Below, one piece after another: positions 16,969 to 60,275 of a stretch of 64,000 bases of DNA. This DNA is from Roseovarius sp. S88 (lineage in GTDB: Bacteria; Pseudomonadota; Alphaproteobacteria; Rhodobacterales; Rhodobacteraceae), in NCBI RefSeq assembly GCF_037023735.1, contig NZ_CP146069.1, forward strand, positions 1,839,501 to 1,903,500, given 5' to 3'. Each line of letters begins with the position of its first letter. Position 1 is the stretch's first letter. The notes under the pieces were generated by a model, which was given only the letters and a program-made list of their open reading frames with translations, was not told the DNA's origin and ran no database searches. The translations under genes were made by a program, and so were the position numbers.

Positions 16969-17673
16969 TTAGCCTGTCGCACCTTGATTGTGTTTGCGGC
17001 CGACCAGTTCCTTGGCGGTTTCCACCGCAACGGCGGCATCGCGGCAATAGGCGTCTGCGCCGATAGCTTTGCCGAATTCCTCGTTCAACGGTGCGCCGCC
17101 CACTAGTACGATATAGTCATCGCGGATGCCCTGTTCCACCATCGTGTCGATGACCACTTTCATATAGGGCATCGTCGTGGTCAAAAGCGCCGACATGCCA
17201 AGGATGTCGGGTTGTTCGTTTTCGATGGCTTCAAGGTAGTTCTCAACCGGGTTGTTGATGCCCAGGTCGACAACTTCAAATCCGGCACCTTCCATCATCA
17301 TGCCGACAAGGTTCTTGCCGATGTCATGGATGTCGCCCTTGACCGTACCGATGACCATCTTGCCCACGCGCGGTGCGCCAGTTTCGGCCAGAAGCGGCTT
17401 GAGGATGGCCATGCCGCCCTTCATTGCATTCGCCGCAAGTAGCACTTCGGGTACAAACAATATGCCGTCGCGGAAGTCTTTCCCAACAATTGTCATGCCG
17501 CCCACAAGCGCCTCGGTCAGGACCCTGTAAGGTTCCCACTTACGTTCCAGCAGGATATTCACACCCTCTTCAATTTCTTCCTTCAGACCGTCATAGAGGT
17601 CATCCCACATCTGTTGGACAAGTTCCTCGTCGTCGAGTTCGCTGAGGATGATGTCGTCTTCTTCGTCGGACAT
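16969..17673 (-). CDS. Corrinoid (B12-binding) protein, cobalamin module of split methionine synthase
   Basis: Methyl carrier of 234 residues: helical cap domain at about 30-100 and Rossmann B12-binding domain from about 105, with the lower-ligand motif GDIHDIGK, then GINNPVENYLEA and LVGGAPLNEEFGK. Similar proteins (MtbC/MetH2 type) serve corrinoid methyltransferases. The first 26 residues are very acidic (MSDEEDDIILSELDDEELV). The homocysteine enzyme gene is 2.2 kb away and the methyl-THF enzyme gene 41 kb away, matching the three-part methionine synthase known in Phaeobacter. Confidence 0.9.
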   Translation of the reverse strand: MSDEEDDIILSELDDEELVQQMWDDLYDGLKEEIEEGVNILLERKWEPYRVLTEALVGGMTIVGKDFRDGILFVPEVLLAANAMKGGMAILKPLLAETGAPRVGKMVIGTVKGDIHDIGKNLVGMMMEGAGFEVVDLGINNPVENYLEAIENEQPDILGMSALLTTTMPYMKVVIDTMVEQGIRDDYIVLVGGAPLNEEFGKAIGADAYCRDAAVAVETAKELVGRKHNQGATG

Positions 17674-17883
17674 TGGCTTTATCCTTGGGGCTCGGGCGCA
17701 AACGTGCGCGCGTGTATACTGGTTGAGCTTTCACCGAAAGTTCCGAAATTCACTGTTCGAATTACGACATAGGCGGCGCTTTCCCCGACTTCTAGCGCAG
17801 ATTTGCGTGGTCATGGTGTGAAAACTTTCGAAGGGATATATGAGTTTATTGCATATGTTCTATTTTTGTTCCAAAATCGTGTG

Positions 17884-18975
17884 ATGCAGAACAAACCCCT
17901 CTCAATTAATCCGGCTTTACGCCGCGCGGGGCGTGGGGCGGTGAGCAATGATGCCGGTCGATTTGAAGCACAGGAACGCGCATTTGAAGCGGATGGCTGG
18001 GACATTGAAGAAGAGTCGCGCCCTTTGCGCACAGAGGTCAGTCTGGAACGTCCGCGCAAGGTGATCACATACAACCGTTCCCCGGATTTGCCCTTTGACC
18101 GGTCGATCAACCCGTATCGAGGATGTGAGCATGGATGTATCTATTGCTTTGCGCGGCCCACGCATGCCTGGTTAGGCCTATCCGCGGGGCTTGATTTTGA
18201 AACCCGGTTGGTGGCTCGGCCCGAGGCGCCACTGGTTTTGGCCAAGGAGCTCAGAAAAAAGTCGTATCAGGTCGCGCCAATCGCCATCGGGACAAACACG
18301 GATCCTTATCAGCCCATTGAAAAGACGCATGAAATCATGCGTTCCTGCCTTCAGGTTTTGTCTGAATTCAATCACCCGGTTGCCATCGTCACAAAGGGCT
18401 GCCTGATTGAACACGACATCGACATCCTGTCGGACATGGCCACGCGCGGGTTGGTCAAGGTGGGGATCACTGTGACCACGCTGGATGCGGATATGTCGCG
18501 CAAACTGGAGCCGCGCGCACCTGCGCCGAAGCGGCGATTGAGGATGATCTCACGATTGGCCGAGGCCGGTGTTCCTGTGCGGATTATGACCTCACCGATC
18601 ATTCCCGGACTGACCTGTCACGAGATTGAACCTTTGCTGACCGCCGGTGCCAAAGCAGGGGCACAAACCGCCACATGGGTGATGCTGCGCCTGCCGTTAG
18701 AGGTCTCACCACTGTTCCAGGAATGGTTGGCAGAACATGTGCCGGATCGCGCACAGCGCATTATGGGGTTGGTGCGCGAGATGCATGGTGGGCGCGACTA
18801 CGCGTCCGATTGGGGGCGGCGGATGCGCGGGCAGGGTGCGTATGCCAAATTGATTGCGCAGAGGTTTCGTGTGGCCACCGCGCGGTTGGGACTAAATGGT
18901 GAGTTGCCAGTTTTGCGGTGCGATCTCTTCAAGCCGCCGCCGGTGCCCGGAGACCAGCTTTCACTTTTTGAATGA
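17884..18975 (+). CDS. Radical SAM protein of the SPL/PA0069 family
   Basis: Protein of 363 residues with a radical-SAM cluster motif CEHGCIYC near residue 85, preceded by NPYRGC, and the downstream GTNTDPYQPIE. These are features of the PA0069 family, distantly related to spore photoproduct lyase; the substrate is unknown. I choose the ATG at 17884 rather than the upstream codons, whose translation is hydrophobic and unlike the family. It is divergent from the corrinoid gene. Confidence 0.88.
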   Translation: MQNKPLSINPALRRAGRGAVSNDAGRFEAQERAFEADGWDIEEESRPLRTEVSLERPRKVITYNRSPDLPFDRSINPYRGCEHGCIYCFARPTHAWLGLSAGLDFETRLVARPEAPLVLAKELRKKSYQVAPIAIGTNTDPYQPIEKTHEIMRSCLQVLSEFNHPVAIVTKGCLIEHDIDILSDMATRGLVKVGITVTTLDADMSRKLEPRAPAPKRRLRMISRLAEAGVPVRIMTSPIIPGLTCHEIEPLLTAGAKAGAQTATWVMLRLPLEVSPLFQEWLAEHVPDRAQRIMGLVREMHGGRDYASDWGRRMRGQGAYAKLIAQRFRVATARLGLNGELPVLRCDLFKPPPVPGDQLSLFE

Positions 18976-19007
18976 GCCTTTTGAGCAAAGCCAAAGCATT
19001 TACACAG

Positions 19008-19042
19008 AAAAAATGGCCCAAAGCCGACTGGCCGGGCCATTT
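19008..19042 (-). terminator. Terminator after the VPLPA-CTERM gene
   Basis: AAATGGCCC and GGGCCATTT form a 9-bp stem enclosing a small inner hairpin. On the minus strand it is followed by a run of six T. It lies between two converging genes and may stop transcription from both sides, though the U-tract favours the minus direction. Confidence 0.8.
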
Positions 19043-19060
19043 CCGGTCTATTTGTTGTTC

Positions 19061-19693
19061 TTATGCTGCGGGCTTGCGACGCCGACGCAAAAAGGCCAGC
19101 CCGCCAATGGCCGCGATCAACATAGCACCTGCCGCAGGCAATGGAACGGGCGCTACGCGTATCGCGTCGATGTCAAAGCCACCTAGTGGCCCGAGCTGAT
19201 CGCTTTGTGCCGATGACGACAGCGGCGATGCATCAACCAATCGAAGCGTATCGAATGTCGATCCAATCAATCCAGTTAATGGAACAATACCACCACCTTG
19301 AGCGGCTACGTTGGAAATGCGCGCGACAAACTGGAACAGCCCGCCATCACCGACGTAAACATCAACAGCTTCGGGAAAGTTGGATGCGCTTCCGAATGTG
19401 ACTTCGAAGATTTGCGCTGAGGCTTTGAATTTCTTACCGAATGTAAAGTCGGCGCTTCCTCTGAACCCAAGCTCGAAAAAGTCACCGTTATTCGGGCCAA
19501 GCGCATTGAGCGCATTGTCACGATCATTACTGGTTCCGCGGCGCGCGAAACTATTGTCATCTTCGTAAGTGATGGTGGTCGCCCAGCCATCGTTGAACCC
19601 TCCAGGTCCCACTGTCACCGTCGCGGCGTGTGCCGCGCCTGAAAGTGCCAGAGCGCCCAAAGTCATCGTCAAAGTTTTGAAAAAAGGTTTCAT
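19061..19693 (-). CDS. Exported VPLPA-CTERM sorting-domain protein
   Basis: Protein of 210 residues with a Sec signal peptide (cleavage near AHAA) and a C-terminal sorting signal: VPLPAAGAMLIAAIGG, a hydrophobic stretch, then FLRRRRK. VPLPA-CTERM is the Rhodobacterales version of PEP-CTERM, thought to be cleaved by an exosortase-like enzyme during surface or matrix export. The central domain, rich in Gly, Asn and Phe, is of unknown fold and may be a calcium or sugar-binding beta sandwich. A short GGGGGCA ribosome site precedes the ATG. Confidence 0.85.
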   Translation of the reverse strand: MKPFFKTLTMTLGALALSGAAHAATVTVGPGGFNDGWATTITYEDDNSFARRGTSNDRDNALNALGPNNGDFFELGFRGSADFTFGKKFKASAQIFEVTFGSASNFPEAVDVYVGDGGLFQFVARISNVAAQGGGIVPLTGLIGSTFDTLRLVDASPLSSSAQSDQLGPLGGFDIDAIRVAPVPLPAAGAMLIAAIGGLAFLRRRRKPAA

Positions 19694-19876
19694 GTACTGC
19701 CCCCATGATAACTCAATGATTGCTCTTTAGCATGAATTGGCGCGTTTGGACACTGCATGCGTCACGAAATTACCAATTTCGTAGAGTGGCTAAAACTTGT
19801 GTGATTTGGGGAACACCGTGGCAATGCGCAGGGTTCTTTTTGTCCCGCAACCGCCCTTACCACGATGGTCCATCCG

Positions 19877-20896
19877 TCAGGCCCGACGTCGGCGTCTGCG
19901 GCGATCGCGCTGAGGGGCATCTGCGTTTTCTTCTGTGCCATCCACGGCCGAGGAAAAAGGCCCAAGCGCGTTGGTGATTGCATCAAGGGAGGGGCGTTCG
20001 CTGCGCGGGCGGGTTTCCAATGCGTCTCGCATCAGCGCCAGATGTTCGGCTTGCGTCCCGCAACAACCGCCGATGATGGTTGCGCCAGAGTCTCGGGCCA
20101 GCACGGCGTAATCTGCCATAAGCTCGGGCGTGCCATCATAGTGGATATGGCCGTCGACATATTTGGGAATGCCGGCATTGCCTTTTGCAACGATCGGGCG
20201 ATCAGAGCCGTGCGCCGCAAAGCCCAGGATCGTGCGCAAGAGGTCAGAGGCCCCGACGCCACAATTGGCTCCATAGGCCAACGGTGCGTTTGGCAATTTC
20301 TCTACCATCTTGGTCATATCCGCTGAGGTCAGCCCCATCATGGTACGCCCGGCGGTGTCAAAGCTCATCGTGCCGCACCAGGGCATATCCGCCAGCGCAA
20401 ACGCTTCGGCGGCGGCTTTGTATTCTTCCGGGGCAGAAATGGTTTCCAGCCACAACACATCAGCGCCACCGTCTTTTAAACCATCGGCTTGTTCATGGAA
20501 TATCTCGACAGCGAGTTCATGGGTCAAACTGCCCATCGGGGCCATGATTTCACCTGTCGGACCAACAGAGCCAGCCACGACCACTTTGCGCTTCTGGCGG
20601 TCCACCACCTCGCGGCCCAATTCGGCAGAAATGCGAGACAGCTCATGCGCGCGCTTTTCCGCACCATGCAATTTGAGACGCGCGGCGTTGCCGCCAAAGG
20701 AATTGGTCAGGAAAAGGTCTGATCCGGCATCGACTGCCTGTGTGTAGAGCAGCGTTACACGGTCCGCATGATCGACATTCCACATCTCCGGCGCGTCACC
20801 CGAACTGAGCCCCATGTTGAAAAGATTGGTACCAGTGGCACCATCGGCGAGAATCCAGTCCCGCTCGGACAGCATTGCGCTCAGGGCGTCGGTCAT
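19877..20896 (-). CDS. Homocysteine S-methyltransferase module of split methionine synthase
   Basis: Zinc-dependent enzyme of 339 residues that transfers a methyl group to homocysteine. It has DGATGTNLF at the start, the Zn-binding NCGVG region (Cys near 208) and GGCCGT near 273, in the order of MetH domain 1 and betaine-homocysteine methyltransferases. The last residues are QRDRRRRRRRA, a tail also found on the methyl-THF enzyme in this window. It starts 33 bp after mprF on the same strand. It is often annotated as bmt; the split-MetH reading rests on context. Confidence 0.9.
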   Translation of the reverse strand: MTDALSAMLSERDWILADGATGTNLFNMGLSSGDAPEMWNVDHADRVTLLYTQAVDAGSDLFLTNSFGGNAARLKLHGAEKRAHELSRISAELGREVVDRQKRKVVVAGSVGPTGEIMAPMGSLTHELAVEIFHEQADGLKDGGADVLWLETISAPEEYKAAAEAFALADMPWCGTMSFDTAGRTMMGLTSADMTKMVEKLPNAPLAYGANCGVGASDLLRTILGFAAHGSDRPIVAKGNAGIPKYVDGHIHYDGTPELMADYAVLARDSGATIIGGCCGTQAEHLALMRDALETRPRSERPSLDAITNALGPFSSAVDGTEENADAPQRDRRRRRRRA

Positions 20897-20929
20897 GATC
20901 AGACTTTCGTTGTGATGGGTTTTGATCTG

Positions 20930-22789
20930 TCACACAGCTCGCGCGCGCGCAAACTCATTATTTTCATGATGATTGTGAGCCAGATTGCGATTGGGGCGGC
21001 GAATAGACAGCCAAAGGTCACTCAAACCAAGTATGAGACTGACCCAACCAGGTGCCAGCGCATAGCGCGCGGTACGTTTGGGATTAAAGCTCATCTTGAA
21101 CTGCAAAAGCCCGGTTCCCTCGCCCATTTTGGCCGCACACCAGGCCATTACTCCACGCTTGGGTGGGAGTGCTGCGAGCGAGAAACGCGGTACTTGGTCT
21201 TGTTCAGCAGCCTGAATGGCCGACCTGATCACGGCATGCATAGTGCCGTCCGGCGCTGTTGCGCATGTGCGCATGAGGTCGAGACACCAGTCTCGCTTGC
21301 TTGTGTGAAAGCTTGCAAAGGCAACAACGCGCCCCTCGTGCCGGGCCAGAAACACCGCCTGATGGCTGAGGTATTCAGGACAAAACCGGCCCATCGTCAT
21401 GCCACGTGCAGCGCCTTGGCGCGCTTGCCAGTCAGCGTCAATGCCCGCGAGGTCCTTCCATGGCAAGGCCCCGCCACGGTGAACAGTGACACCGGACTGT
21501 TCGGCCTGACGCAACTTTCGGCGCAACTGCCGAAAGGTCCGGCCTTGCGTGTCGAAGCCGGCCGTGTCTATCACCAAATCATCTGCCACATGCAACGCGC
21601 GCCACCCTAACTTTGTCGCAGCTGCGGCCATACGACCATCGGCCTTGTAAACCAGAGGCCAGAGTGTTTCTCGACGCGCCTCAGATACGAGCACCTTGAG
21701 TGCAGCGACAGGCTGTCCCGCGAGCGGGGCAAATAACAGGCACAAGCTTTGACCAGGGCGCAAGACAGGAAGACTGACCTGCCGGGCCTCAACGATCCCG
21801 GCATCGCCCTGTCGGCACAGGCCGATTTCGGCACGCGGCGCGCGCATCAGATCCCGTTCATGCAGATCGCGACGCCGCATGTCCGAAGGACCGCCCTGTA
21901 CAAACGGACGACGCAACATCAAAGCCGCCACGCAAAATGGCACGGCGTAGTACATTAGACGGAACGCCACGATGCCGCAAAGAAGATCTGCTTGCGAAAC
22001 TGCCGGAAGTGCCGCCAACAAAACAAGTTCAAAAGGTCCCACGCCGCCCGGAGTGCCCCCGAGCAATGCCGCGCCAAGCGCGAGCATGTAAGCAGGAATT
22101 AGCGCAGCCAGTGGCAAGACGGCTTGTGTGGGCAACAAACACCAAAGCGCGACACTCGCACTTATCGCGTCGACCAGTGCAAGGACCGTGACAGTACCCA
22201 GCATTTTGAGGCTGGGGCAGCGGATGTGACAATTTCCAAGGGTAATTTTGGGTTTAAGAACGCAAAGAAAGGCAATGCAAAAAAACACAAAAAAGAAGAT
22301 AGCCCCATGAACATTGGTCAGAACTTCGGACGGCGCAAACGTACCGACCAAACCCAGACAAAACGTCAGGCCCACAAGAAAACAAGCCGCCACGCCAGAG
22401 GCGATTTTCGTAGACTGTGCAAGCGTGATCCCTGGCACCAGGCGCCAGCGCACCAATGCGCCGCTAAGCACGCCAAGACCAACAGTTTGGCCAATGGCAA
22501 TCGCGGCGGCGCCACTGGCAAAGGCATGGTGGGGGCGGCACCCGGTGCGAAGATGCTGGTGCAGGATGACATCATAGCGACCCAAAGCCCAAAAGCTCAC
22601 CGCAGTGGCAAGCCCTGCGGTGATCCACTGAATAGGCGACAGTTTCGATAGTGCCGCCCCCAAGCCCGTGAAGCTGTCCGATGCGAGGTGATCCTGCAGG
22701 ATCCAAAGGCACAAGACACCAATGAAAAACGGCATCACATGGCGCGGGCGGGGTGTTGCGGGAGATTTGCCCCTAGCCAATGTGAACAT
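20930..22789 (-). CDS. mprF: MprF-like lysylphosphatidylglycerol synthase/flippase
   Basis: Membrane protein of 619 residues. The N-terminal half has about eight helices with the flippase-domain signature GGTPGGVGPFE; the C-terminal half is a DUF2156 aminoacyltransferase domain (RQLRRKLRQAEQSG, then FASFHTSKRDWCLDLMR). Family members move an amino acid from tRNA to phosphatidylglycerol, lowering membrane charge. I use the ATG at 22787-22789, which follows GAGAGG; the GTG 12 bp further up is less likely. The last residues are a polar tail. The amino acid used cannot be told from sequence. Confidence 0.82.
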   Translation of the reverse strand: MFTLARGKSPATPRPRHVMPFFIGVLCLWILQDHLASDSFTGLGAALSKLSPIQWITAGLATAVSFWALGRYDVILHQHLRTGCRPHHAFASGAAAIAIGQTVGLGVLSGALVRWRLVPGITLAQSTKIASGVAACFLVGLTFCLGLVGTFAPSEVLTNVHGAIFFFVFFCIAFLCVLKPKITLGNCHIRCPSLKMLGTVTVLALVDAISASVALWCLLPTQAVLPLAALIPAYMLALGAALLGGTPGGVGPFELVLLAALPAVSQADLLCGIVAFRLMYYAVPFCVAALMLRRPFVQGGPSDMRRRDLHERDLMRAPRAEIGLCRQGDAGIVEARQVSLPVLRPGQSLCLLFAPLAGQPVAALKVLVSEARRETLWPLVYKADGRMAAAATKLGWRALHVADDLVIDTAGFDTQGRTFRQLRRKLRQAEQSGVTVHRGGALPWKDLAGIDADWQARQGAARGMTMGRFCPEYLSHQAVFLARHEGRVVAFASFHTSKRDWCLDLMRTCATAPDGTMHAVIRSAIQAAEQDQVPRFSLAALPPKRGVMAWCAAKMGEGTGLLQFKMSFNPKRTARYALAPGWVSLILGLSDLWLSIRRPNRNLAHNHHENNEFARARAV

Positions 22790-22925
22790 GCAACCTCTCA
22801 CCGGAAAAACTTCAACGCGGGATAGGTGCCATGCCAGCTCTTTCAGAGCACTTAACGTTTAAAATGCGCATGAAAAAAGGCGCGACCTGACAAGTCGCAC
22901 CTTTAATTTACGGGGTGTATGGAGG

Positions 22926-23240
22926 TCAGATCTCGCTCATGATCTGGTCTTGGGCCACGGGGATCATTTCCTCAATCTTGGCGCGTACAGTATCTGCATC
23001 AGCCAGATCGCCCAGGTCACCCGCCACTTTGCGCACGACATCCTCATAACCAGCCTCTTCGAAATCGGCGAGTACCACCTCCTTGGCATAAGCTTCGGCC
23101 TCATCTCCCGACTTACCCATCAATTCGGCCGCCCACAGACCCACAAGTTTGTTGCGGCGGGCCTCGACCTTGAACTGCATCTCGGCGTCGTGGGCATATT
23201 TGTTTTCAAAGGCGTTTTCGCGGTCGTCAAAGGTGCTCAT
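22926..23240 (-). CDS. F1-ATPase inhibitory zeta subunit (DUF1476)
   Basis: Small cytoplasmic protein of 104 residues that in Paracoccus and relatives blocks ATP hydrolysis by the ATP synthase. It begins MSTFDDRENAFENKYAHD, the inhibitory segment of the family, followed by a four-helix bundle (LVGLWAAELMG and so on). The ATG at 23238-23240 is the family start; codons upstream belong to the promoter region shared with purC, from which it is divergent. Confidence 0.93.
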   Translation of the reverse strand: MSTFDDRENAFENKYAHDAEMQFKVEARRNKLVGLWAAELMGKSGDEAEAYAKEVVLADFEEAGYEDVVRKVAGDLGDLADADTVRAKIEEMIPVAQDQIMSEI

Positions 23241-23410
23241 TATGCTCTCCGTTCTAAGCACAGCGCTATGTGGTGCCATTGCCCAAGATATGGCCGCATG
23301 ACCTCGTTCGCGCAAGGGTTAAAGCCCATCTTGCCCCATTTCGCGCCATGCACTATGAGAACGCCATAAGCCGCGCCGACCCGCGCGCGGCCCTTTCAGA
23401 AAGAGAGCCC

Positions 23411-24172
23411 ATGGCGCGGCGCAAGAAAATTTACGAAGGCAAGGCAAAGACACTCTTTGAAGGGCCCGAGCCCGGCACGATTGTGCAGTATTTCAAGGAT
23501 GATGCGACCGCCTTCAACGCCCAGAAAAAGGACGTTATCGAAGGCAAAGGCGTGCTCAACAACATGCTGAGCGAGTATTTCATGAATGGTCTGACGAATG
23601 TCGGTATTCCGAACCATTTCATCAAACGCATCAACATGCGCGAGCAACTGGTGCGCACCTGTGAAATCGTGCCTCTGGAAGTCATTGTGCGCAACTATGC
23701 CGCCGGAACCATGGCGCAGCGTCTGGGCATGGATGAAGGTACGCAATTGCCACGGCCGGTGGTGGAGTATTGCCTCAAGGATGACAACCTGGGCGATCCA
23801 TTGGTGACCGAGGAACACATCGCCGCCTTTGGCTGGGCAAGCCAGCAGGATATGGAAGATATCCTGTCGCTGGCCTTGCGGGTGAACGACTTCCTTTCAG
23901 GGGTGATGTACGGCGTGGGCATTCGACTGGTGGATTTCAAAATCGAGATTGGCCGCATCTATGACGGGGATTTCATGCGCCTCATCGTGGCTGATGAAAT
24001 CTCGCCCGACAGCTGCCGATTGTGGGATATCGAGACGGGTGAAAAGCTCGACAAAGACGTCTTCCGCCGCGATCTGGGCAGTCTGACGGATGCCTACACC
24101 GAAGTGGCCAAACGTCTGGGTGTTATGCCCAAGGGTGCCACACCGATGACCAAACCGACGCTGATCAACTGA
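23411..24172 (+). CDS. purC: SAICAR synthetase
   Basis: Joins aspartate to CAIR in purine synthesis. The 253 residues begin [18 protein letters not shown] and contain KVP-like substrate loop [10 protein letters not shown] and [16 protein letters not shown] precedes the ATG at 23411; the in-frame codons before it do not match the family. It heads purC-purS-purQ with 14 bp to purS. Confidence 0.96.
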
Positions 24173-24186
24173 GGGGGCAAGAGCAA

Positions 24187-24426
24187 ATGAAAGCACGCGT
24201 ACATGTCATGCTGAAAAACGGGGTTCTAGACCCGCAGGGCGAGGCGGTGCGCCACGCGTTGGGGCAGCTTGGCTTTGACGGGGTCGAAGGCGTTCGGCAG
24301 GGCAAGGTGATCGAGCTTGATCTCAATGAAACGGATGCAGCGAAGGCAGAGCAAACCGTCACAGCGATGTGCGAAAAGCTTCTGGCCAATACGGTCATCG
24401 AATCCTATTCGGTGGAGGTCGTCTGA
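24187..24426 (+). CDS. purS: FGAM synthase PurS subunit
   Basis: Small structural subunit (79 residues) of the three-part FGAM synthase PurLSQ; helps ammonia pass from PurQ to PurL. It starts [21 protein letters not shown], the family pattern. Its stop overlaps the purQ ATG (TGATG). PurL is not in the window. Confidence 0.95.
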
Positions 24427-25094
24427 TGCACGCTGCGGTCGTCGTCTTTCCCGGATCCAACTGTGACCGCGATATGAAGGTCGCGTTTGAGAGGGCTGGC
24501 GCCAAGGTCACGATGGTCTGGCACAAGGACACCGATCTACCCAAAGGCGTGGATGTGGTGGGCATACCGGGGGGGTTTTCCTTTGGCGACTACCTACGCT
24601 GCGGAGCGATTGCGGCTAATTCACCGATTTGCCAGTCGGTCAAGGCGCATGCGGATCGAGGTGGCTATGCCTTGGGCATCTGCAACGGGTTCCAGGTTTT
24701 GACGGAAACCGGAATGCTGCCCGGAGTGTTGCTGCGAAACTCAGGCCTGAAGTACGTATGCAAAGCCCTTGATCTGAAAGTGGAAACATCTAATTCCGCG
24801 TTCACATCTGGCTATAATGCTGGAACCACGATCACCATTCCGATCGCGCATCACGATGGCAATTACTTTGCCGACAGCGATACACTCAAAGCACTCAACG
24901 AAGAAGAGCGTGTCGCATTTCGTTATGTCGAAAATCCAAATGGCTCTCAGCAGGATATTGCAGGTGTGCTGTCCGAAAACCGGCGGGTGCTGGGGATGAT
25001 GCCCCACCCGGAGCGTATGGCCGAGCGCACCCACGGAAACACCGAAGGCGCGACGCTTTTCGCCAGCCTTGTCGGGCAACTGGCGGATGCATAA
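24426..25094 (+). CDS. purQ: FGAM synthase glutaminase subunit PurQ
   Basis: Class I glutamine amidotransferase of 222 residues. The start [17 protein letters not shown], nucleophile Cys in [11 protein letters not shown] (near residue 86) and the His/Glu pair in GMMPHPERM are all present. The ATG overlaps the purS stop by one base, so the two are co-translated. Confidence 0.96.
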
Positions 25095-25137
25095 ACCCAC
25101 GCTTGAGACCCGTCACGGCGCAGTTTAGCATAGGCAC

Positions 25138-26901: not shown

Positions 26902-26906
26902 GTGAC

Positions 26907-28241: not shown

Positions 28242-28379
28242 GTTTGATTGCGTCGTAAGCGTGAAGTCTTGTGTCGCGGGTAATCGACGGCGCAACAGCT
28301 AGTATACCGCAACAAGTAGCCAGTAGCGTCGCTGAAAAAACCTTCGAAACAGAAACCGTCAATGGCGGCTCTGCGGTGC

Positions 28380-38836: not shown

Positions 38837-38838
38837 CG

Positions 38839-44644: not shown

Positions 44645-44660
44645 GTCTTAAAGGCTTGGG

Positions 44661-48009: not shown

Positions 48010-48014
48010 TCCAA

Positions 48015-48039: not shown

Positions 48040-48065
48040 TATATAACAACGGGGGCACGGCCAGA

Positions 48066-50776: not shown

Positions 50777-51235
50777 ATGCCTCTTACAGATCACATGCCA
50801 ACCACGGGCAAGGCGGTTGCCGCCATCGGACTTGCCATCATTGCGTGGTACGCCTCGGAAATGATCCGCCCGCTGATGCCAGAAGGCACAGATTTTGGCT
50901 GGTTTAACGAGTTCAACGTGTTTCTTGGGTTGCTTGTGGGATGGGTGGTCATCGGCACGCGCTTAAACCGGGGATACCTTGACGGGATCAGCGCGGGTTT
51001 GACCGGTGTGGTCGCACTGATTTTCTGGGCGCTGTTCTTTCAAAGTCTCAACGAAATGCTGCGGCTCGCGCTAGAGAGCCGGTACAGCGGTCCGGTTCAG
51101 GGCATCATTGCCGTGTTTGAAATCGCCGTGGACTATGGAACCAAAATTCTCCATGTCCCGCTTGCGATCTTGCTGTTTGGTGGTGGCGCGGTGCTTGGAC
51201 TTGTCAGCGAATGGATTGCCAAGCGGTGGTCCTGA
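50777..51235 (+). CDS. trgA: TrgA, tellurite-resistance associated membrane protein
   Basis: Membrane protein of 152 residues with four helices (GKAVAAIGLAIIAWYASEMI at the start, then NVFLGLLVGWVVIG). It belongs to the TrgA family, whose gene lies with trgB and cysK in Rhodobacter sphaeroides, where the cluster gives tellurite resistance. Same order here. The mechanism is unknown. It starts one base after the cfa stop and ends 4 bp before trgB. Confidence 0.88.
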   Translation: MPLTDHMPTTGKAVAAIGLAIIAWYASEMIRPLMPEGTDFGWFNEFNVFLGLLVGWVVIGTRLNRGYLDGISAGLTGVVALIFWALFFQSLNEMLRLALESRYSGPVQGIIAVFEIAVDYGTKILHVPLAILLFGGGAVLGLVSEWIAKRWS

Positions 51236-51239
51236 GGGT

Positions 51240-52335: not shown

Positions 52336-52389
52336 GTTAGCCATGCGGACGTTCTAAGTCTGGGCGCAGCACTGACAGGGAGCCTCATT

Positions 52390-53421
52390 ATGCGCATTGC
52401 CAAGGACCTCGCCGACGCGGTTGGCCACACTCCGTTGATCCGGCTGCGTCAAGCCAGCGAGGCCACGGGTTGCGAGATATACGGCAAGGCGGAATTCATG
52501 AACCCGGGTCAATCGGTGAAGGACCGTGCAGCCCTTTTTATCATTCGCGACGCCATTGCGCGCGGTGATCTGAAACCGGGCGGCACAATTGTCGAGGGTA
52601 CTGCAGGCAACACCGGGATCGGGCTATCGGTTGTCGGGGCCTCCATGGGGTTCAAAACCGTGATCGTTATTCCCGAGACGCAAAGCGAAGAGAAAAAAGA
52701 TATGCTGCGCCTCGCCGGTGCGGAATTGGTGCAAGTGCCTGCGGCCCCTTATGCCAACCAGAACAACTTTGTGCATTACTCGCGCCGTCTCGCGAAGAAA
52801 CTGGCTGAAAAATCACCCAATGGCGTCATCTGGGCCAATCAGTTCGACAACGTGGCCAACCGGCAGGCGCATATCGAAACTACCGGCCCAGAGATATGGG
52901 AGCAGACCAGCGGCAAGGTGGACGGATTTATCTGTGCATGTGGTTCGGGCGGGACACTCACTGGCGTGGCCATGGCGCTGCAATCCAAGGGCGTGAAAAT
53001 CGGCCTGGCCGACCCAATGGGGGCCAAACTATTTTCATGGTTCACCAAGGGTGAGCTTGAATCTGAGGGGGGATCAATCGCCGAAGGCATCGGGCAGGTG
53101 CGCGTGACAGCAAACCTGGAAGGGCTCGCGCCCGACTTCGCGTATCAAATCACCGATGAAGAAGCGTTGCCAATTGTTTTTGACTTATTGGAACATGAAG
53201 GCCTCGTCATGGGGGCCTCTACCGGCGTGAACGTTGCTGGCGCGATCCGCATGGCCAAGGAAATGGGGCCGGGACACACCATTGTGACGATCCTCTGTGA
53301 CTATGGCACACGGTATCAATCCAAGCTCTTTAACCCTGATTTCCTGCGCGAAAAGAACTTGCCTGTGGCCGACTGGATGACCAAAGCGCCACAGAGTATT
53401 CCCGGAGTGTTCGTGGAATGA
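52390..53421 (+). CDS. cysK: Cysteine synthase A
   Basis: PLP enzyme of 343 residues making cysteine from O-acetylserine and sulfide. PLP Lys is in NPGQSVKDRAA, and GTAGNTGIGL, CGSGGTLTGV and the late ASTGVNVAGA are present. AGGGAG lies seven bases before the ATG. Third gene of trgA-trgB-cysK. Overlaps the next gene by 4 bp. Confidence 0.95.
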   Translation: MRIAKDLADAVGHTPLIRLRQASEATGCEIYGKAEFMNPGQSVKDRAALFIIRDAIARGDLKPGGTIVEGTAGNTGIGLSVVGASMGFKTVIVIPETQSEEKKDMLRLAGAELVQVPAAPYANQNNFVHYSRRLAKKLAEKSPNGVIWANQFDNVANRQAHIETTGPEIWEQTSGKVDGFICACGSGGTLTGVAMALQSKGVKIGLADPMGAKLFSWFTKGELESEGGSIAEGIGQVRVTANLEGLAPDFAYQITDEEALPIVFDLLEHEGLVMGASTGVNVAGAIRMAKEMGPGHTIVTILCDYGTRYQSKLFNPDFLREKNLPVADWMTKAPQSIPGVFVE

Positions 53422-55874
53422 TGCGCCTTTTGAAAGGCTTAGCTCTGATATTTCTGCTGGCGTTTTGGAGCGCCGTGCCACTTTTACTCGCGCCAGAAGC
53501 TGCACAGGCGCAATCCACACCGCAAATTTCTCAGTCAGAGCCCGACTACGAGACTTGGATCCGCACAGCGGACCGGGCCGATGAGGCAATAGAAGCAGCC
53601 CGCGCTTCGACAACGGCTCTTGAGACATTGCGCGAAGATCTGGCGGGCTGGCGGCAGCAATTCATTGCGGCCCAAGGCATCAACAGCAATGCGCTGGCCA
53701 CAGTGCGCCGTCAGATCAGCGATCTGGGCCCTGTCCCCGAAAACGGAGAAGAACCCGAAGATGTGGCTGCCAATCGCCAGCTTTTGCAAGACAGGCTGGA
53801 CCGGCTGAATGCTCCGGTTCTGCGTGCCGAGTTGGCGTTTAGCCGTGCCGATGGACTGATCCGCGGTATCGACAAGATCATTCGCGACCGGCAAGCCGAA
53901 GAATTGCTGGAATTCGGACCATCACCGCTCAACCCGACCCATTGGGCCGCTGGATTGGCGGCGCTGCCCGCAACAATGACACAGCTCTCTGGCGAGATAT
54001 CAAAGGCCTGGCGCAACCCGGTACAAGCGGCAGAGACAAGAAACAGTCTGCCGGTTGTAGCGGTTCTCACTCTTCTGGGACTCATTCTGGTGTCGCGCGG
54101 TCGGGTCTGGAGCCGACGGCTGACCAATCGGGTATTGGGCGAGAACCCTGGTGCCGGGCTTTGGATCACTGGGTTTGTGGTGTCGTTGGGCAGTCTAGGG
54201 TTGCCCTTTGTCGGGATATTGCTGCTCATCGAGGCTATCGTCTCAACAGGTCTGGTGGGACTGCGCGGCGATCAGATCCTTGCAGCCTTTGTACCTGCGG
54301 CGTTTGCTTTCCTGCTGGCGCGCTGGCTGGCCACACGGGTGTTCCCCGCAGATGAAGCGCGCACCTTGCCACTCATCCTTGATGCAACTCAGCGATCAAG
54401 GGGACGTTTCTTTGGGGCCTGTCTGGGACTCGTCGCCGCCACGGCTGTCTTTCTACGAGATGTGGGTGATATTTCTGGCTGGAGTGATGCGGCAACCAAT
54501 GTCGTGGTGTTTCCCGTATTGGTCATATCCGGGTTTCTTCTCTGGAGATTGGCGAACCTGCTGCGCGTACATGTACGCAACTCATCAGAGGCGGATGGCG
54601 AAGAAAGCTATCGAACCAAACTGATCAGCGTGCTGGCACTGGGCCTTGTCGTGCTGGCGTTCGTGTCTCCGCTTCTGGCGGCAGTGGGGTACTTCAGGCT
54701 TGCGGAATCTCTGATGCTGCCATCGCTGGCATCACTTGAGATGTTGGCGGTGCTTCTGGTGCTGCAGCGTCTGGTGGTCGAGGTCTATGTGCTCATCACT
54801 GGTAACCGCGAGGGCGCAGCAGAGTCGCTGCTTCCGATCCTGATCGGATTCCTTCTTGTGCTGGCCTCTTTGCCGATCTTCGCGCTCATCTGGGGCGCGC
54901 GGGTGGCGGACCTGACCGAGCTTTGGACGCAAGCGCTTGACGGCATCAGCATCGGTGGTGTGCGCATCTCGCCGATGATTTTCCTCACCTTCGCGCTGGT
55001 CTTTGTGCTGGGGTATCTGGCCACACGCATGGTGCAGGGGGCGCTCAAGAACACCATCCTGCCCAAGACACGTATGGATGCTGGTGGGCGCAATGCGATT
55101 GTGTCAGGCGTCGGATATCTCGGGATATTCCTGGCCGCCGTCATCGCCATCACAAGTGCTGGAATTGACCTTAGCTCGATTGCCATTGTCGCCGGTGCGT
55201 TGTCGGTTGGTATCGGCTTTGGCCTGCAAAACATCGTGTCTAACTTTGTCTCAGGCATCATCCTTCTGATCGAGAGGCCGATTTCCGAAGGCGACTGGAT
55301 CGAGGTTGGCGGCGTACATGGCACGGTGCGGGATATCTCTGTGCGCTCGACCATTATCCAGACTTTTGACCGCTCGGACGTCATCGTGCCAAATTCCGAC
55401 CTCGTCAGCGGACGGGTGACAAACTACACACGCGGCAACACTGTGGGTCGCGTCATTGTGCCGGTGGGCGTGGCTTATGGGTCGGACACCAAGAAGGTTG
55501 AGGCCATCCTGCAAGAGGTGGCGGATGCACATCCTCTGGTGCTGATGAACCCGCCGCCTGCGGTTCTTTTCCGGTCCTTCGGGGCCTCTTCGCTTGATTT
55601 CGAAATCCGCGCCATCTTGCGCGATGTGAACTACGTGATGTCGGTGCACTCTGAGATGAACCACGAGATCGCCAGACGGTTCGAGGAAGAAGGCATCGAA
55701 GTGCCCTTCGCGCAGCGCGATATCTGGATCCGCAATCCCGAGGCCTTGCCGCAAACTCAAGCCCAGCAATCGGACCCGCCACCAATGAAATCCAAAGACA
55801 TGTCAGCGCATGTCACGCCGGAGGATCTGGACGCTGGCAAGGGCGACGCGGATGGTGACGGAGGCGGGCGATGA
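53418..55874 (+). CDS. MscS-family mechanosensitive channel with DUF3772 domain
   Basis: Large channel protein of 818 residues: Sec signal peptide (to about AQAQ), a periplasmic DUF3772 domain rich in coiled coil (residues 40-200), about ten helices, and a C-terminal MscS core with SVGIGFGLQNIVSNFVSGIILL and ISEGDWIEVGGVHGTVRDIS. It protects against osmotic downshock; the domain layout is that of MscK-like channels. The ATG overlaps the cysK stop. Confidence 0.92.
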   Translation: MMRLLKGLALIFLLAFWSAVPLLLAPEAAQAQSTPQISQSEPDYETWIRTADRADEAIEAARASTTALETLREDLAGWRQQFIAAQGINSNALATVRRQISDLGPVPENGEEPEDVAANRQLLQDRLDRLNAPVLRAELAFSRADGLIRGIDKIIRDRQAEELLEFGPSPLNPTHWAAGLAALPATMTQLSGEISKAWRNPVQAAETRNSLPVVAVLTLLGLILVSRGRVWSRRLTNRVLGENPGAGLWITGFVVSLGSLGLPFVGILLLIEAIVSTGLVGLRGDQILAAFVPAAFAFLLARWLATRVFPADEARTLPLILDATQRSRGRFFGACLGLVAATAVFLRDVGDISGWSDAATNVVVFPVLVISGFLLWRLANLLRVHVRNSSEADGEESYRTKLISVLALGLVVLAFVSPLLAAVGYFRLAESLMLPSLASLEMLAVLLVLQRLVVEVYVLITGNREGAAESLLPILIGFLLVLASLPIFALIWGARVADLTELWTQALDGISIGGVRISPMIFLTFALVFVLGYLATRMVQGALKNTILPKTRMDAGGRNAIVSGVGYLGIFLAAVIAITSAGIDLSSIAIVAGALSVGIGFGLQNIVSNFVSGIILLIERPISEGDWIEVGGVHGTVRDISVRSTIIQTFDRSDVIVPNSDLVSGRVTNYTRGNTVGRVIVPVGVAYGSDTKKVEAILQEVADAHPLVLMNPPPAVLFRSFGASSLDFEIRAILRDVNYVMSVHSEMNHEIARRFEEEGIEVPFAQRDIWIRNPEALPQTQAQQSDPPPMKSKDMSAHVTPEDLDAGKGDADGDGGGR

Positions 55875-56590
55875 CTGATCGGTTGTACCTGAAGAATGCT
55901 TATGCTCGGGATGCCAAGGGGCATGTGACAGCACACACACCCGAAGGCGGCATTGTGCTGAGCAAGTCGCTCTTTTATCCCACCAGCGGCGGGCAACCGG
56001 GCGATAGCGGTCATATTGTCTGGGTGGATGCGACGCTTGAAATCGCAACGACGATCAAGCTTGATGCCTGGCAGATCGCGCTTATCCCTGCGGAGCCACA
56101 GCCCTTACCGCCCGTGGGCACTGAGATCATGCAGCATATCGACTGGGACCGGCGCTATCGGCACATGCGCGTGCACACGGCCTTGCATCTGCTATCGGTG
56201 GTCCTGCCTTTGCCGGTGACGGGAGGCTCCATCGGCACCGAAAAAGGACGGCTCGATTTTGATATGGCAGAGCCTCCAGAGGATAAATCCAAGCTGGAAG
56301 AGCTACTCAATGCAATGGTGGCGCTCAACCTTCCGGTCAGCGAAAGCTGGATCACAGATGCGGAACTGCGTGATAATCCGGGACTGGTAAAAACTATGTC
56401 CGTCAAGCCGCCTGTGGGAGAAGGGCAGGTGCGACTGGTGCGCATTGGCGAAGGTGAGTCGCAGGTCGATCTACAACCTTGTGGCGGTACCCATGTGGCG
56501 CGCACCGGCGAGATCGGCAAGCTGCGCATTGGCAAGATCGAAAAGAAAGGTCGTCAGAACCGCCGGGTGTATCTGCATCTCGATGGATGA
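55871..56590 (+). CDS. AlaX-type alanyl-tRNA editing protein
   Basis: Stand-alone editing enzyme of 239 residues that deacylates Ser-tRNA(Ala) or Gly-tRNA(Ala). The zinc motifs are HMRVHTALH (HxxxH) and CGGTH, in the order of AlaRS editing domains; FYPTSGGQPGDSG at the start matches AlaX-M. It overlaps the channel gene by 4 bp, so it is in the same operon. Confidence 0.92.
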   Translation: MTDRLYLKNAYARDAKGHVTAHTPEGGIVLSKSLFYPTSGGQPGDSGHIVWVDATLEIATTIKLDAWQIALIPAEPQPLPPVGTEIMQHIDWDRRYRHMRVHTALHLLSVVLPLPVTGGSIGTEKGRLDFDMAEPPEDKSKLEELLNAMVALNLPVSESWITDAELRDNPGLVKTMSVKPPVGEGQVRLVRIGEGESQVDLQPCGGTHVARTGEIGKLRIGKIEKKGRQNRRVYLHLDG

Positions 56591-56606
56591 GGCAGAGGGA
56601 GTTATC

Positions 56607-57239
56607 ATGGCAAATGCAAAAGCACGCAACCTGATCGAGGGACGCGCGGTGCTGATCGTGATCGACATTCAGAAATCGACCTTTGCACCGCTCTCAGATG
56701 ATGAACGGGCCATTGCGCATATGCCGGACTATGCCGAGCGCATGGCGTTGTCGCGTAAGGCCATTGATCAAGCGCGTGACGTGGGTATTCCGGTGGTTTT
56801 CATTCAGGAAATTCATCGTGCCGATCTGGTGGACATGGGGCGCGAGACCGATGGGGACGAGGAGGTGCACTGCCTCGACAACAACCCTCTGACCGAGCTG
56901 GCGGTCGAAGAGCTAGGCATTCTTCCCGACGACTACAAAATCCAGAAACGCCGCTACTCGGCCTTTTACGGCACCGACCTTGAGATCCTGCTCAGAGGTC
57001 TGAAGGCCGAAACCCTGATCCTGGTGGGCGGGCTGACGGATGTCTGCGTGCACTACACCTTTGTGGATGCGCATCAGGGTGATTATTTCTGCCGCGTGAT
57101 CGAGGACTGCGTCGCAGGCTCCAGCATCGAGGCGCACGACGCCGCGCTCCGGGCCATGGAATATCTCCAGCACGGCGCGGTGCGATCACTGAATGAAGTG
57201 CTGGAGGCGATGGCAAAGCCAGTTCAGATCCATGGCTAG
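56607..57239 (+). CDS. Isochorismatase-like cysteine hydrolase
   Basis: Hydrolase of 210 residues with the catalytic triad pattern: Asp in VLIVIDIQKS, Lys in QKRRYSAFYGTDL, and Cys in GGLTDVCVHYT. The family includes nicotinamidases, N-carbamoyl hydrolases and biuret-type amidases; the substrate is unknown. The ATG has GAGGGAG upstream and follows alaX by 16 bp, so it is probably the last gene of this long run. A weak hairpin (57292-57304) lies after it. Confidence 0.87.
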   Translation: MANAKARNLIEGRAVLIVIDIQKSTFAPLSDDERAIAHMPDYAERMALSRKAIDQARDVGIPVVFIQEIHRADLVDMGRETDGDEEVHCLDNNPLTELAVEELGILPDDYKIQKRRYSAFYGTDLEILLRGLKAETLILVGGLTDVCVHYTFVDAHQGDYFCRVIEDCVAGSSIEAHDAALRAMEYLQHGAVRSLNEVLEAMAKPVQIHG

Positions 57240-57366
57240 GCTGGTATCGGAAAAATGCTAAGCCTCGAACCAAGCAAAGATGGGCTTGAGTGCCAAACGT
57301 TGGCGAATTTTTATACAAGGTCGGTCCGCCGCTAAAGTTCCGGAGTCTTGCCGGGATATTTGATGG

Positions 57367-58137
57367 TCAAATAGACCTTTTGGGGTCGATGGGTTTGGTC
57401 TCTATTGCTTCTTTCTTGATCATAAATGCGAGCATCGTATCAACGGTCTGAATTCTGTCCGCCAATGCATTATGTGCCAAGAAATCATGCGCCGCACGCG
57501 CACATCCATCCCAGGCAAAATAGTCGTCAAGAATTATCAATCCCCCGACTTCAACTTTATCATAGAGAATATTGAGGCACTCTGCCGTGGATGAATACCA
57601 ATCCGCATCGAGCCGCAGAACCGAAATTGGCCCCTTGACGTCCTCAAGCGTGTCACTGAACCAACCCTTGAGAACGTTGAAATCCGTTGCCGAAGATTTT
57701 GACATCACGTCATTTGCAAAACTCTCTTCTGTTTTGCAGTTGTCAACGGCATTGCTTTTTTGCCAGTCCGTCGCTTTGATCCCATCGATTGCTTCGGCAC
57801 TTGGCAAGCCTTCAAAGCTGTCAAGCAAGTAATAGCGCCGCTCAGACCCAAGAATATCGGCCATTCCGGCAGACATGCCCCCTCGCCAAACACCACATTC
57901 GACCACCGCACCAGAACCAACACCATGCGTATTCACAACGGCAAGATTGGCGCAAAAAGCCTCAACAGATAACCTTGTGTAGTCGCTATACCTGTCGTAA
58001 ATTTTGAGAAATTCCTCACTTTCGAGCGCTTTCCAAAAACTGTTTGCTTTCCCGAACGACTTTGCCAGTGCGTTCCGAACGCGTCGGTTCTTGGTGACTG
58101 CTCGGACGCTGGACTTCAAAGTTTTGTTGACTGCCAC
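57367..58137 (-). CDS. TylF/MycF-like SAM-dependent O-methyltransferase, GTG start
   Basis: Protein of 256 residues of the macrocin O-methyltransferase family. SAM site VECGVWRGGMSAGMADIL, metal/acidic motif LRLDADWYSSTAECL, and LIILDDYFAWDGC are visible. Start is GTG at 58135-58137, with AAGGA upstream; no ATG fits. Family members modify sugars of macrolides, but no other sugar or antibiotic genes are near. Its lower GC content than the neighbours suggests it may be acquired. Confidence 0.82.
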   Translation of the reverse strand: MAVNKTLKSSVRAVTKNRRVRNALAKSFGKANSFWKALESEEFLKIYDRYSDYTRLSVEAFCANLAVVNTHGVGSGAVVECGVWRGGMSAGMADILGSERRYYLLDSFEGLPSAEAIDGIKATDWQKSNAVDNCKTEESFANDVMSKSSATDFNVLKGWFSDTLEDVKGPISVLRLDADWYSSTAECLNILYDKVEVGGLIILDDYFAWDGCARAAHDFLAHNALADRIQTVDTMLAFMIKKEAIETKPIDPKRSI

Positions 58138-58224
58138 GCCTTTTTTTCCTTCTCAACATGCCGGTTTTCGACACTATTGCTTAAACTTTTGAACACTCCA
58201 AGATACGCATACCAAACTTCTAAC

Positions 58225-58253
58225 AAAAAACCCCGGCGATCACCGGGGTTTTT
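58225..58253. terminator. Terminator after the methyl-THF enzyme operon
   Basis: CCCCGG and CCGGGG pair around CGATCA with A/T runs on both sides (AAAAAA before, TTTTT after), working in both directions. For the minus strand it ends the PF13769-metF-methyltransferase operon. Confidence 0.9.
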
Positions 58254-58271
58254 GAACCTTTTCAGCAAAAC

Positions 58272-59339
58272 TTAGGCCCGACGGCGCCGCCGCGCACCAG
58301 CCCGGCCACCACGTCCGCCGGGGGACTCTTCGCCCGGCTTCAGCGGGGCTTTGTTGAACTTGATCCACTCGCCACCATGCGGGTCATTGTTGGTCAGGAA
58401 GTTGGCCGCGCGGATGGCCTCCATCTCTTTGCCCGGGCGGCTTTTGGTCGAGCCCAAACCGAAAAGCTGACAGAAGGTTTCATCATCCATGCCCTCGGGC
58501 AGGATAATGCCCGCGGCTTCGATCTCGGCGCGCTTGGCGGCCTTCTCGGCCTCCTTCACAGGCAGGGCGATCGGATTCATGATGGCCGATGTCATACCTG
58601 CGCCCATGGCCATAGGTAGAAACGCATTGTTGATGCCGTGGCGGTTGGGCAGGCCGAATGAGATATTTGATGCACCACAGGTGGTGTTGACGCCCAACTC
58701 CTCGCGCAGACGGCGCACCAGGGTGAAGACCTGAAGCCCCGCGGTACCCATTGCACCGATCGGCATGACCAGTGGGTCGACCACAATGTCATGCGCCGGA
58801 ATGCCGAAATCGGCGGCACGTTCGACAATCTTCTTGGCGACGGCAAAGCGTACATCGGGATCCTCGGAAATACCGGTGTCATCGTTGGAAATCGCCACAA
58901 CCGGCACATTGTATTTCTTCACCAGAGGCAGGATCGCCTCAAGACGTTCTTCTTCACCCGTGACTGAGTTGAGCAAAGGCCGTCCTTCGCAGACCTCCAG
59001 ACCCGCCTCCAGCGCACCGGGCACAGAGCTGTCGATACACAGAGGCACATCTACAAGCCCCTGCACCAATTCGATCACCTTCCGCATGAGCGGCGGTTCG
59101 GTCTGGTTGGGATCGGGGTTGGAATTATAGACCACGCCGGCATTCACATCGAGCACCGTGGCACCCGCAGCGACCTGTGCAATGGCATCTGCCTCGACGG
59201 TGGAAAAGTCACCGGCTTCCAACTCGGCCGCGAGTTTCTTGCGCCCTGTTGGGTTGATCCGTTCTCCAATCACGCAGAAGGGTTGATCAAAGCCGATGAT
59301 GGCGGTTTTGGTTTTGCTTTCGACGATGGTCTGCGTCAT
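58272..59339 (-). CDS. Methyl-THF:corrinoid methyltransferase, pterin module of split methionine synthase
   Basis: Pterin-binding TIM-barrel protein of 355 residues, like MetH domain 2 and AcsE. Start FCVIGERINPTGRKKLAAEL is the pterin signature, followed by GATVLDVNAG, PLCIDSS, LNSVTGE and GASNISFGLPNR. It ends with a Gly/Arg tail, GGRAGARRRRRA, like the homocysteine enzyme. It is 3 bp downstream of metF, so methyl-THF producer and user are co-expressed. Its corrinoid partner is encoded at 16969-17673. Confidence 0.92.
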   Translation of the reverse strand: MTQTIVESKTKTAIIGFDQPFCVIGERINPTGRKKLAAELEAGDFSTVEADAIAQVAAGATVLDVNAGVVYNSNPDPNQTEPPLMRKVIELVQGLVDVPLCIDSSVPGALEAGLEVCEGRPLLNSVTGEEERLEAILPLVKKYNVPVVAISNDDTGISEDPDVRFAVAKKIVERAADFGIPAHDIVVDPLVMPIGAMGTAGLQVFTLVRRLREELGVNTTCGASNISFGLPNRHGINNAFLPMAMGAGMTSAIMNPIALPVKEAEKAAKRAEIEAAGIILPEGMDDETFCQLFGLGSTKSRPGKEMEAIRAANFLTNNDPHGGEWIKFNKAPLKPGEESPGGRGGRAGARRRRRA

Positions 59340-59342
59340 GGT

Positions 59343-60275
59343 TTATCCTTGCTGGCTGGCAGGCACAGTGGACGCGCCGCCATTGTCAATCGCCCAGGTG
59401 GCGTTGGTCTTGATCCCGCCTAATGGGAAGAAATGCACGTTGGTGATGTTGAAATCCGGATTGGCGGCTTTGTGGGCGGCCAGTTGGCTGAGAACATCGG
59501 TCGGCTCATAGGGCAGAAGGAGCTTGGAGACATCCATCGCACGCTTTTGCAGCACTTTGAGCGATGGCCCGACACCACAGGCGATGGCGAATTTGATCAG
59601 CGTCTGAAGCTTGGCCGGACCCGCGATGCCAATGTGGACAGGCAGGGTGATCCCGGCCGCCGCCAGATCATCGGCCCATTTGATGATGGGGCCTGCGTCA
59701 AAGGCAAACTGCGTGGCCAGCGCCATTTCGGCATCGGTGGTTTCAGAGAATTTCTGCTTCCAGCGAAGCGCCTCTTCGACATTCTTCATGCTGCCGTCTG
59801 GATCAATGTCCTTGTTGCCTTCGGGGTGACCGGCCACATGCAACCGTTTGAAACCCGCGCGATCAAACGCTCCACTTTCCAAAAGCTGCATGGAGCTGTG
59901 ATAGTCGCCATGGGGCTTTTCCACTCCACCGGCGAGCAAAAGCGCCTGTTCGACACCGGCCTCGCCTTGATAGCGCGCAATCCAGTCTTCCAGCGTCGCC
60001 TGATCCTTGATGATCCGCGCCGGGAAGTGGGGCATGACAGGGTAGCCATCGGCGGCCAGACGTTTGGCCGTGGCGACCATGTCTTCAATGGGCGTGCCCT
60101 CGATATGTGCGATGTAGACACGGGTGCCAGTCGGCAGAAGATCACGGAAGTTTTCAACCTTCTCAGCTGTACGCGGCATGACCTCTATGGAGTATCCTTT
60201 GAGAAAGGCCTCCATTTCCGGTGTGACCACGCGCTCGCTTGGTGTCTCGCGTCTTTTGAAGTTCAACAAAGCCAT
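59343..60275 (-). CDS. metF: Methylenetetrahydrofolate reductase family protein
   Basis: Makes 5-methyl-THF from 5,10-methylene-THF. The 310 residues have the MTHFR barrel: SIEVMPRTAEKVENF, VYIAHIEGTP, ALLLAGGVEKPHGDY, KRLHVAGHPEGNKDI and PVHIGIAGPAKLQTL. It belongs to a divergent MetF-like branch seen next to corrinoid methyltransferases. The ATG at 60273-60275 follows GGGAGG by five bases; 12 upstream codons from a TTG are not needed. Confidence 0.88.
   Translation of the reverse strand: MALLNFKRRETPSERVVTPEMEAFLKGYSIEVMPRTAEKVENFRDLLPTGTRVYIAHIEGTPIEDMVATAKRLAADGYPVMPHFPARIIKDQATLEDWIARYQGEAGVEQALLLAGGVEKPHGDYHSSMQLLESGAFDRAGFKRLHVAGHPEGNKDIDPDGSMKNVEEALRWKQKFSETTDAEMALATQFAFDAGPIIKWADDLAAAGITLPVHIGIAGPAKLQTLIKFAIACGVGPSLKVLQKRAMDVSKLLLPYEPTDVLSQLAAHKAANPDFNITNVHFFPLGGIKTNATWAIDNGGASTVPASQQG

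Follow-up and report, generated by a model that had tools for sequence, protein, structure and literature searches.

How can one B12 protein serve many separate methyltransferases without the tethering found in MetH? This question is raised by a stretch of 64,000 nucleotides from Roseovarius sp. S88 (contig NZ_CP146069.1, positions 1,839,501 to 1,903,500; hereafter the window), which encodes the corrinoid protein MtgC, the homocysteine S-methyltransferase module MtgE, and the methyltetrahydrofolate:corrinoid methyltransferase module MtgD. Classical MetH has the same chemistry and the same modules, but they are covalently joined. In the window they are separate genes, all on the minus strand, at the places given by a prediction made from the DNA letters alone (the original prediction; Table 1). 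The trio is the known set of split methionine synthase and glycine-betaine demethylase parts. The modules and the pathway are therefore not new, and the open part is their charged ends: an acidic head on MtgC and Arg-rich tails on MtgE and MtgD. We found a conserved tag, defined by charge and loose in sequence, at either end of proteins from four families that are expected to use MtgC. The tag was missing from the non-clients tested, and some correlation was seen between the charges of head and tags. We lean towards reading it as a shared electrostatic address tag that draws clients to one B12 hub. Such a shared recruitment device would be the new part of the system.

Charged Ends of MtgC, MtgE, and MtgD

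The acidic start of the corrinoid protein was as predicted, the N-terminus of MtgC being MSDEEDDIILSELDDEELV. The whole protein has a net charge of -25 and an isoelectric point of 4.24. In its AlphaFold model, residues 1-4 have a predicted local distance difference test score below 50, and a long helix starts at residue 14. L9, L12, L17, and Q20 were invariant across 46 orthologues, which indicates that the head is more than purely electrostatic. The conserved head was present in 0/17 MtgC-like paralogues of at most 50% identity, as judged by eye; the paralogue L331 has a short acidic start, but of a different kind.

Both methyltransferases end in the Arg-rich tails that had been predicted, RDRRRRRRRA in MtgE and GGRGGRAGARRRRRA in MtgD. 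Among 46 open reading frames (ORFs) of the window, only MtgE (8) and MtgD (7) had at least 5 Arg in any 12 of the last 30 residues, and the next best ORF had 4. The set came from a simple caller with a minimum length of 150 residues, and MtgC was lost from it along with a few more overlapping ORFs. The AlphaFold model of MtgE is confident to about residue 310 and low from about 311 (block means 69, 42, and 54), and its end may be read as disordered. A sorting signal of the VPLPA/PEP-CTERM type was excluded as the nature of these tails, with no TIGR03370 match in either protein.

The 3.64-Mb genome was also searched for four CGN-coded Arg followed by one residue and TAA or TGA. The pattern occurred at 13 places, as it did in a backward control. 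At only three of these places does the pattern close an open frame of at least 150 residues; the proteins are MtgD, MtgE, and a membrane-anchor protein of the VPLPA type. No further C-tagged client was found by this pattern among the open frames of that size, a search that is incomplete because AGG-coded tags, such as that of the corrinoid activator RamA, escape it.

Conservation of the Charged Ends

The best 80 of 586 confirmed MtgC loci from named Rhodobacterales were inspected by eye. An acidic head was present at 80/80 of these loci, and all 62 MtgE proteins within their flanks had an Arg-rich end. The caller kept 44 MtgE proteins, and in 42 of them a 12-residue stretch with at least 5 Arg lay among the last 30 residues. 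Among background ORFs, 46/1062 reached 5 Arg and 18/1062 reached 6, rates that are probably too high because the simple caller kept ORFs that look wrong-frame. Ahead of the Arg tag, MtgE of these Rhodobacterales (L013-L092) has a recurring spacer similar to FSS..DGT.

The survey was extended to 385 alphaproteobacterial genomes, with MtgC taken at 70% identity or more and MtgE at an E-value of 1e-40. MtgC was found in 74 genomes, MtgD in 75, MtgE in 61, and the MttB family (PF06253) in 82; the 74 MtgC genomes included PF06253 in 74, MtgD in 70, and MtgE in 57. Every distinct readable MtgC head (75/75, with 7 partial rows excluded) was net acidic by at least 4 within 17 residues. The tail rule required a 12-residue stretch with at least 5 Arg within the last 40 residues. 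The rule was passed by 55/59 complete MtgE orthologues, those of G064 and G346 being dropped as cut by a contig end, and by 72/73 complete MtgD orthologues, that of G071 not being recovered and that of G307 being cut by a contig end. Two of the MtgE misses (G338 and G088) have 4 Arg but 6 Arg plus Lys, and two (G084 and G061) truly lack the tag; the sole MtgD miss, in G077, is apparently a broken gene. The families covered numbered 36 for MtgC heads, 35 for MtgD, and 29 for MtgE (27 with a passing tail). Tails missing from most orthologous trios, the outcome that the original prediction had named as speaking against it, were not what we saw. MtgD residues of about 258-330, ahead of the tag, aligned in the family to which the window belongs (five genomes); for other families, profile alignments end near residue 257-269.

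No MtgE was found at this E-value in 17 of the MtgC genomes, and the Arg tail of MtgD was kept in those looked at (e.g., G041, G148, and G185). This indicates that the MtgD tail is not bound to methionine synthesis alone. Outside the class, MtgC was found in 11 of 174 genomes from the order of genome G456, which belongs to the same phylum. In these 11 neighbourhoods, the MtgC head was acidic in 11/11 by eye, and the tail was present in 9/9 MtgD, 7/8 RamA, and 0/7 DUF1638 proteins. The MttB-family head had at least 6 Arg per 25 residues in six of seven proteins, and the seventh had 5.

The tails could have arisen by neutral drift towards low-complexity sequence where genomic GC is high. Arg is encoded by GC-rich codons, and the tails vary in length and order, the mean pairwise identity of the last 15 residues being 0.26 for the 55 tagged MtgE proteins. 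The Arg count of MtgD also tracks the GC content of the locus weakly (rho 0.28, p 0.02). However, the Arg count of MtgE showed no such correlation, and its last 15 residues hold 39% Arg and hardly any Lys (3%). Both tails persist in G062, where locus GC is 33% and the MtgE tail is written mostly in AGA codons, and the neighbouring DUF1638 protein has not drifted to Arg, with only 1/66 orthologues meeting the tail rule. Drift is very improbable; the low-GC loci and DUF1638 led us to rule it out despite the weak MtgD correlation.

Tags on Other Expected Clients of MtgC

In Ruegeria pomeroyi, whose genes are named MtgC, MtgD, and MtgE, MtgC and MtgD are common to methionine synthesis and glycine-betaine demethylation; there are several MttB-type genes, and MttB-type proteins were proposed as donors (PMC12478193). 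RamA needs access to MtgC because it reactivates it. RamA and DUF1638 were named as test proteins before the RamA sequence was seen, and the former proved tagged and the latter untagged. RamA of this genome has the Arg-rich C-terminus GGDTGGEGGRRRRRRG. Across 17 genomes, 16 of 18 RamA proteins had a 12-residue stretch with at least 5 Arg within the last 45 residues. L366 fell short but has RRRGLRRR at a more internal position, and L375, which also fell short, is an additional RamA copy of the genome that encodes it.

The MttB family carries its tag at the other end. The genome encodes eight MttB-family proteins and one PF02607 corrinoid protein, which is expected to serve all of them. Each of the eight has an N-terminal Arg-rich head, such as MAEASARRRGRGGGGAARRAERT, whose best 25 residues hold 6 to 8 Arg; L005, the shortest, has MARRARARIDR. 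In the wider sample, 91/91 readable heads had at least 6 Arg per 25 residues, with 13 partial rows left out. The original prediction thus named two real tails, but its list was not complete, since RamA and the eight MttB-family proteins are tagged too. One of the eight genes, L009 (G000:C1:462291-463780), lies in two frames (PF06253 residues 5-379 and 373-500) and has an ambiguous start codon; gene decay or an error in sequencing might explain the two frames.

Proteins that serve other corrinoid proteins gave a different picture. Among the best 120 of 3901 homologues of the Desulfitobacterium MtgB type, mostly Firmicutes by name, none (0/120) had 3 or more Arg before the domain, and 112/120 begin at most 3 residues from it. 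In 3zyy, a corrinoid activator of solved structure, 9 residues follow the match. The genome encodes two more PF02574 proteins, unlikely users of MtgC, and both lack Arg clusters at the C-terminus. Tagging of the expected clients and its absence from non-clients held with the exceptions of MtgE in G061 and G084 and, by the rule, 2/18 RamA proteins.

Poly-Arg ends are generic binders of nucleic acids and lipids. The tags may therefore bind another ligand, such as RNA, polyphosphate, a membrane lipid, or polyglutamyl-folate, with the acidic head being merely part of the B12 cap; the four invariant residues of MtgC would fit such a role of the head. We consider this unlikely. The tag follows the expected clients of MtgC across four Pfam families and is missing from the homologues that serve other corrinoid proteins and from DUF1638, which is encoded beside MtgC. 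Folate would leave the tags of MttB and RamA unexplained, and the charges of head and tails correlate, after phylogenetic contrasts only for Arg plus Lys of MtgE.

A Possible Docking Tag for One B12 Hub

Apart from their tags, which carry +4 to +6, MtgD, MtgE, RamA, and the seven MttB proteins other than L009 have acidic bodies, from -14 to -32. With acidic partner bodies, a basic tag would offset the repulsion from an acidic hub. The acidity of the MtgC head correlated with the Arg plus Lys content of MtgD (rho 0.46 in 68 genomes; 0.44 for the means of 34 families) and of MtgE (rho 0.54 in 53 genomes; 0.58 for the means of 27 families). In phylogenetic contrasts, Arg plus Lys of MtgE still followed the MtgC head (r 0.42, p 0.0014), as one of four measures tried, and the value was 0.41 (p 0.0012) without G061 and G084. 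DUF1638 tails and locus GC showed no correlation with MtgC head charge.

We believe that MtgC would act as a single B12 hub, visited in turn by the donors MtgD and the MttB-family demethylases, by the acceptor enzyme MtgE, and by the repair enzyme RamA. Each visitor would present its short, apparently disordered Arg-rich tag, C-terminal in MtgD, MtgE, and RamA and N-terminal in the MttB family. The tag may be drawn to acidic MtgC, most probably to the N-terminal head beside the B12 cap, and a physical contact of this kind is suggested by the sequences. The contact would be weak, multivalent, and loose in register, so that local concentration and association rate might rise while clients could still exchange. 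In this way, separate proteins would gain from the tag what MetH gains from tethering.

Oppositely charged ends had been predicted to hold the modules together as a substitute for covalent linkage in MetH. This idea gains from the recurrence of the ends in 27 (MtgE), 35 (MtgD), and 36 (MtgC) families and outside the class, and from the charge correlation, significant after contrasts only for Arg plus Lys of MtgE. Any role of the tags as glue would extend beyond a three-module synthase, as a tag is also present on RamA and on all readable members of the MttB family. The replacement of MetH links is also doubtful, since the Discussion of PMC12478193 argues that the split set was not simply separated from MetH. 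A common address tag is the better reading because RamA and MttB proteins are tagged and the MtgD tail is kept where no MtgE was found.

Several results weigh against a common address tag. In the contrasts, MtgD did not follow the MtgC head significantly (r 0.10-0.12, p 0.16-0.22), MtgE Arg alone was marginal (p 0.07), and the tails of MtgD and MtgE did not follow each other (p 0.21). G061 and G084 (L225 and L239; genomes of 1.7 and 2.0 Mb) have an untagged MtgE together with a normal MtgC head and MtgD tail. DUF1638 is untagged, and it too is needed for methionine synthesis in Phaeobacter inhibens, where its counterpart was required (PMC5764234). Eight genomes have an MttB-family match with no MtgC found, and in at least two of them (G226 and G064) the MttB proteins are tagged. 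Five of the eight are at most 82% complete or more than 5% contaminated, the others neither. Among MttB-family proteins of alphaproteobacterial genomes without MtgC, the pieces from G007 and G247 are without N-ends, and their heads are not readable. Finally, purified MtgE of P. inhibens (Bmt) was active alone on betaine and dimethylsulfoniopropionate in vitro, and it is described as still unknown whether the homocysteine module of that species acts with other split parts or alone (PMC12366255).

Instead of docking one to one, the acidic hub might coacervate with the Arg/Gly-rich tags into a many-body condensate or metabolon, possibly with RNA. The composition of GGRGGRAGARRRRRA and of heads such as GRRGRSGGGREARRAAR resembles RGG sequences, the MtgE tail has low model confidence, and hub and tags are oppositely charged. 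The tags are, however, short (about 10-25 residues), and each MtgC chain has one acidic head, and we regard a condensate as distinctly unlikely.

Returning to the address tag, the chances seem even that it is a general docking code, in which an Arg-rich terminal tag marks a client of an acidic-headed corrinoid hub. Such a code would imply that the same tag was gained separately by different families at either end and that unknown B12 clients could be found by the tag alone. A removable, shared tag makes the hub question testable by deletion. If the reading is true, the tag would point to probable clients among those members of the MttB family whose substrates are unknown, and nature would offer an example of enzyme recruitment coded by charge, of use in the construction of enzyme hubs.

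Comparison with Known Systems

The three-part methionine synthase of P. inhibens has the same three modules together with RamA-like and DUF1638 proteins (PMC5764234). In the present genome, the PF02574, PF00809, and PF02607+PF02310 modules are encoded by separate genes, and a RamA-like activator and a DUF1638 protein are both encoded. Eight genes for MttB-family (PF06253) partners are present, as in an MtgBCDE glycine-betaine demethylase. MtgE matched NCBIfam NF005718 with 591 bits (cut-off 338) and MtgD matched NF005719 with 405 bits (cut-off 259). MtgC scored below the cut-offs of the glycine-betaine MtgC families (NF047996, 195 bits vs. 370; NF047995, 172.4 vs. 310); it is related to these NCBIfam families but lies outside them. 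PF02607 occurs at a single place in the genome, in a 253-residue open frame, and neither a fused PF02607 protein nor a classical MetH was found by this search (PF02965 was not searched). The single stand-alone corrinoid protein rules out a fused MetH remnant. Methionine auxotrophy of mutants was reported in P. inhibens (PMC5764234) and R. pomeroyi (PMC12478193), and the system is reported to be widespread among marine bacteria in which methionine is made and glycine betaine broken down (PMC12478193).

The nearest precedent for the MtgC head, by analogy, is the N-terminal domain of MtaC in the methanol methyltransferase MtaB-MtaC. This additional domain lies in a groove between the MtaB subunits and appears to stabilise the complex (PMC9842639). 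MtaC has one domain for one partner, whereas MtgC has a short acidic head and basic tags sit on many partners. In MttB-MttC of Methanosarcina barkeri (7xcn), an MttB-family enzyme docks a B12 protein of the MtgC fold, mainly through the dimerisation loop and the corrinoid (PMC9842639); in our alignment, MttC starts about 11 residues later than MtgC. A term search gave no mention of charged or disordered termini in the main text of PMC5764234, nor of Arg tails or an acidic head in that of PMC12478193. Such charge tags were not described among the literature matches listed, which mostly did not cover subscription journals and preprints.

Other Features of the Window

Table 1. Positions of the split methionine synthase genes, their charged ends, and neighbouring genes in the window.
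Feature	Position	Strand	Description
mtgC	16969..17673	-	Corrinoid (B12) carrier, hub; 234 aa; PF02607+PF02310
Acidic head of MtgC, residues 1-18	17620..17673	-	MSDEEDDIILSELDDEEL; net -10
mtgE	19877..20896	-	Homocysteine S-methyltransferase module; 339 aa; PF02574
Arg-rich C-terminal tag of MtgE	19880..19909	-	RDRRRRRRRA
mtgD	58272..59339	-	Methyltetrahydrofolate:corrinoid methyltransferase module; 355 aa; PF00809
Arg-rich C-terminal tag of MtgD	58275..58319	-	GGRGGRAGARRRRRA
DUF1638 gene adjoining mtgC	16260..16895	-	PF07796; neighbour control
Radical SAM gene between mtgC and mtgE	17803..18975	+	PF04055 (PMC5764234); start tentative
VPLPA-CTERM (PEP-CTERM-like) protein between radical SAM gene and mtgE	19061-19693	-	TIGR03370 match
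Divergent methylenetetrahydrofolate-reductase-like gene directly upstream of mtgD	59343..60311	-

The order of the DUF1638, corrinoid, radical SAM, and homocysteine module genes equals that of P. inhibens c13340-c13370 (PMC5764234). The reductase-like gene had no Pfam match at 1e-3 and only a weak match to TIGR00676 (25 bits, cut-off 293.7). In R. pomeroyi, metF2 lies downstream of mtgD (PMC12478193), whereas the reductase-like gene lies upstream here. The VPLPA-CTERM protein ends in LRRRRKPAA, another type of Arg end, which belongs to its sorting signal.

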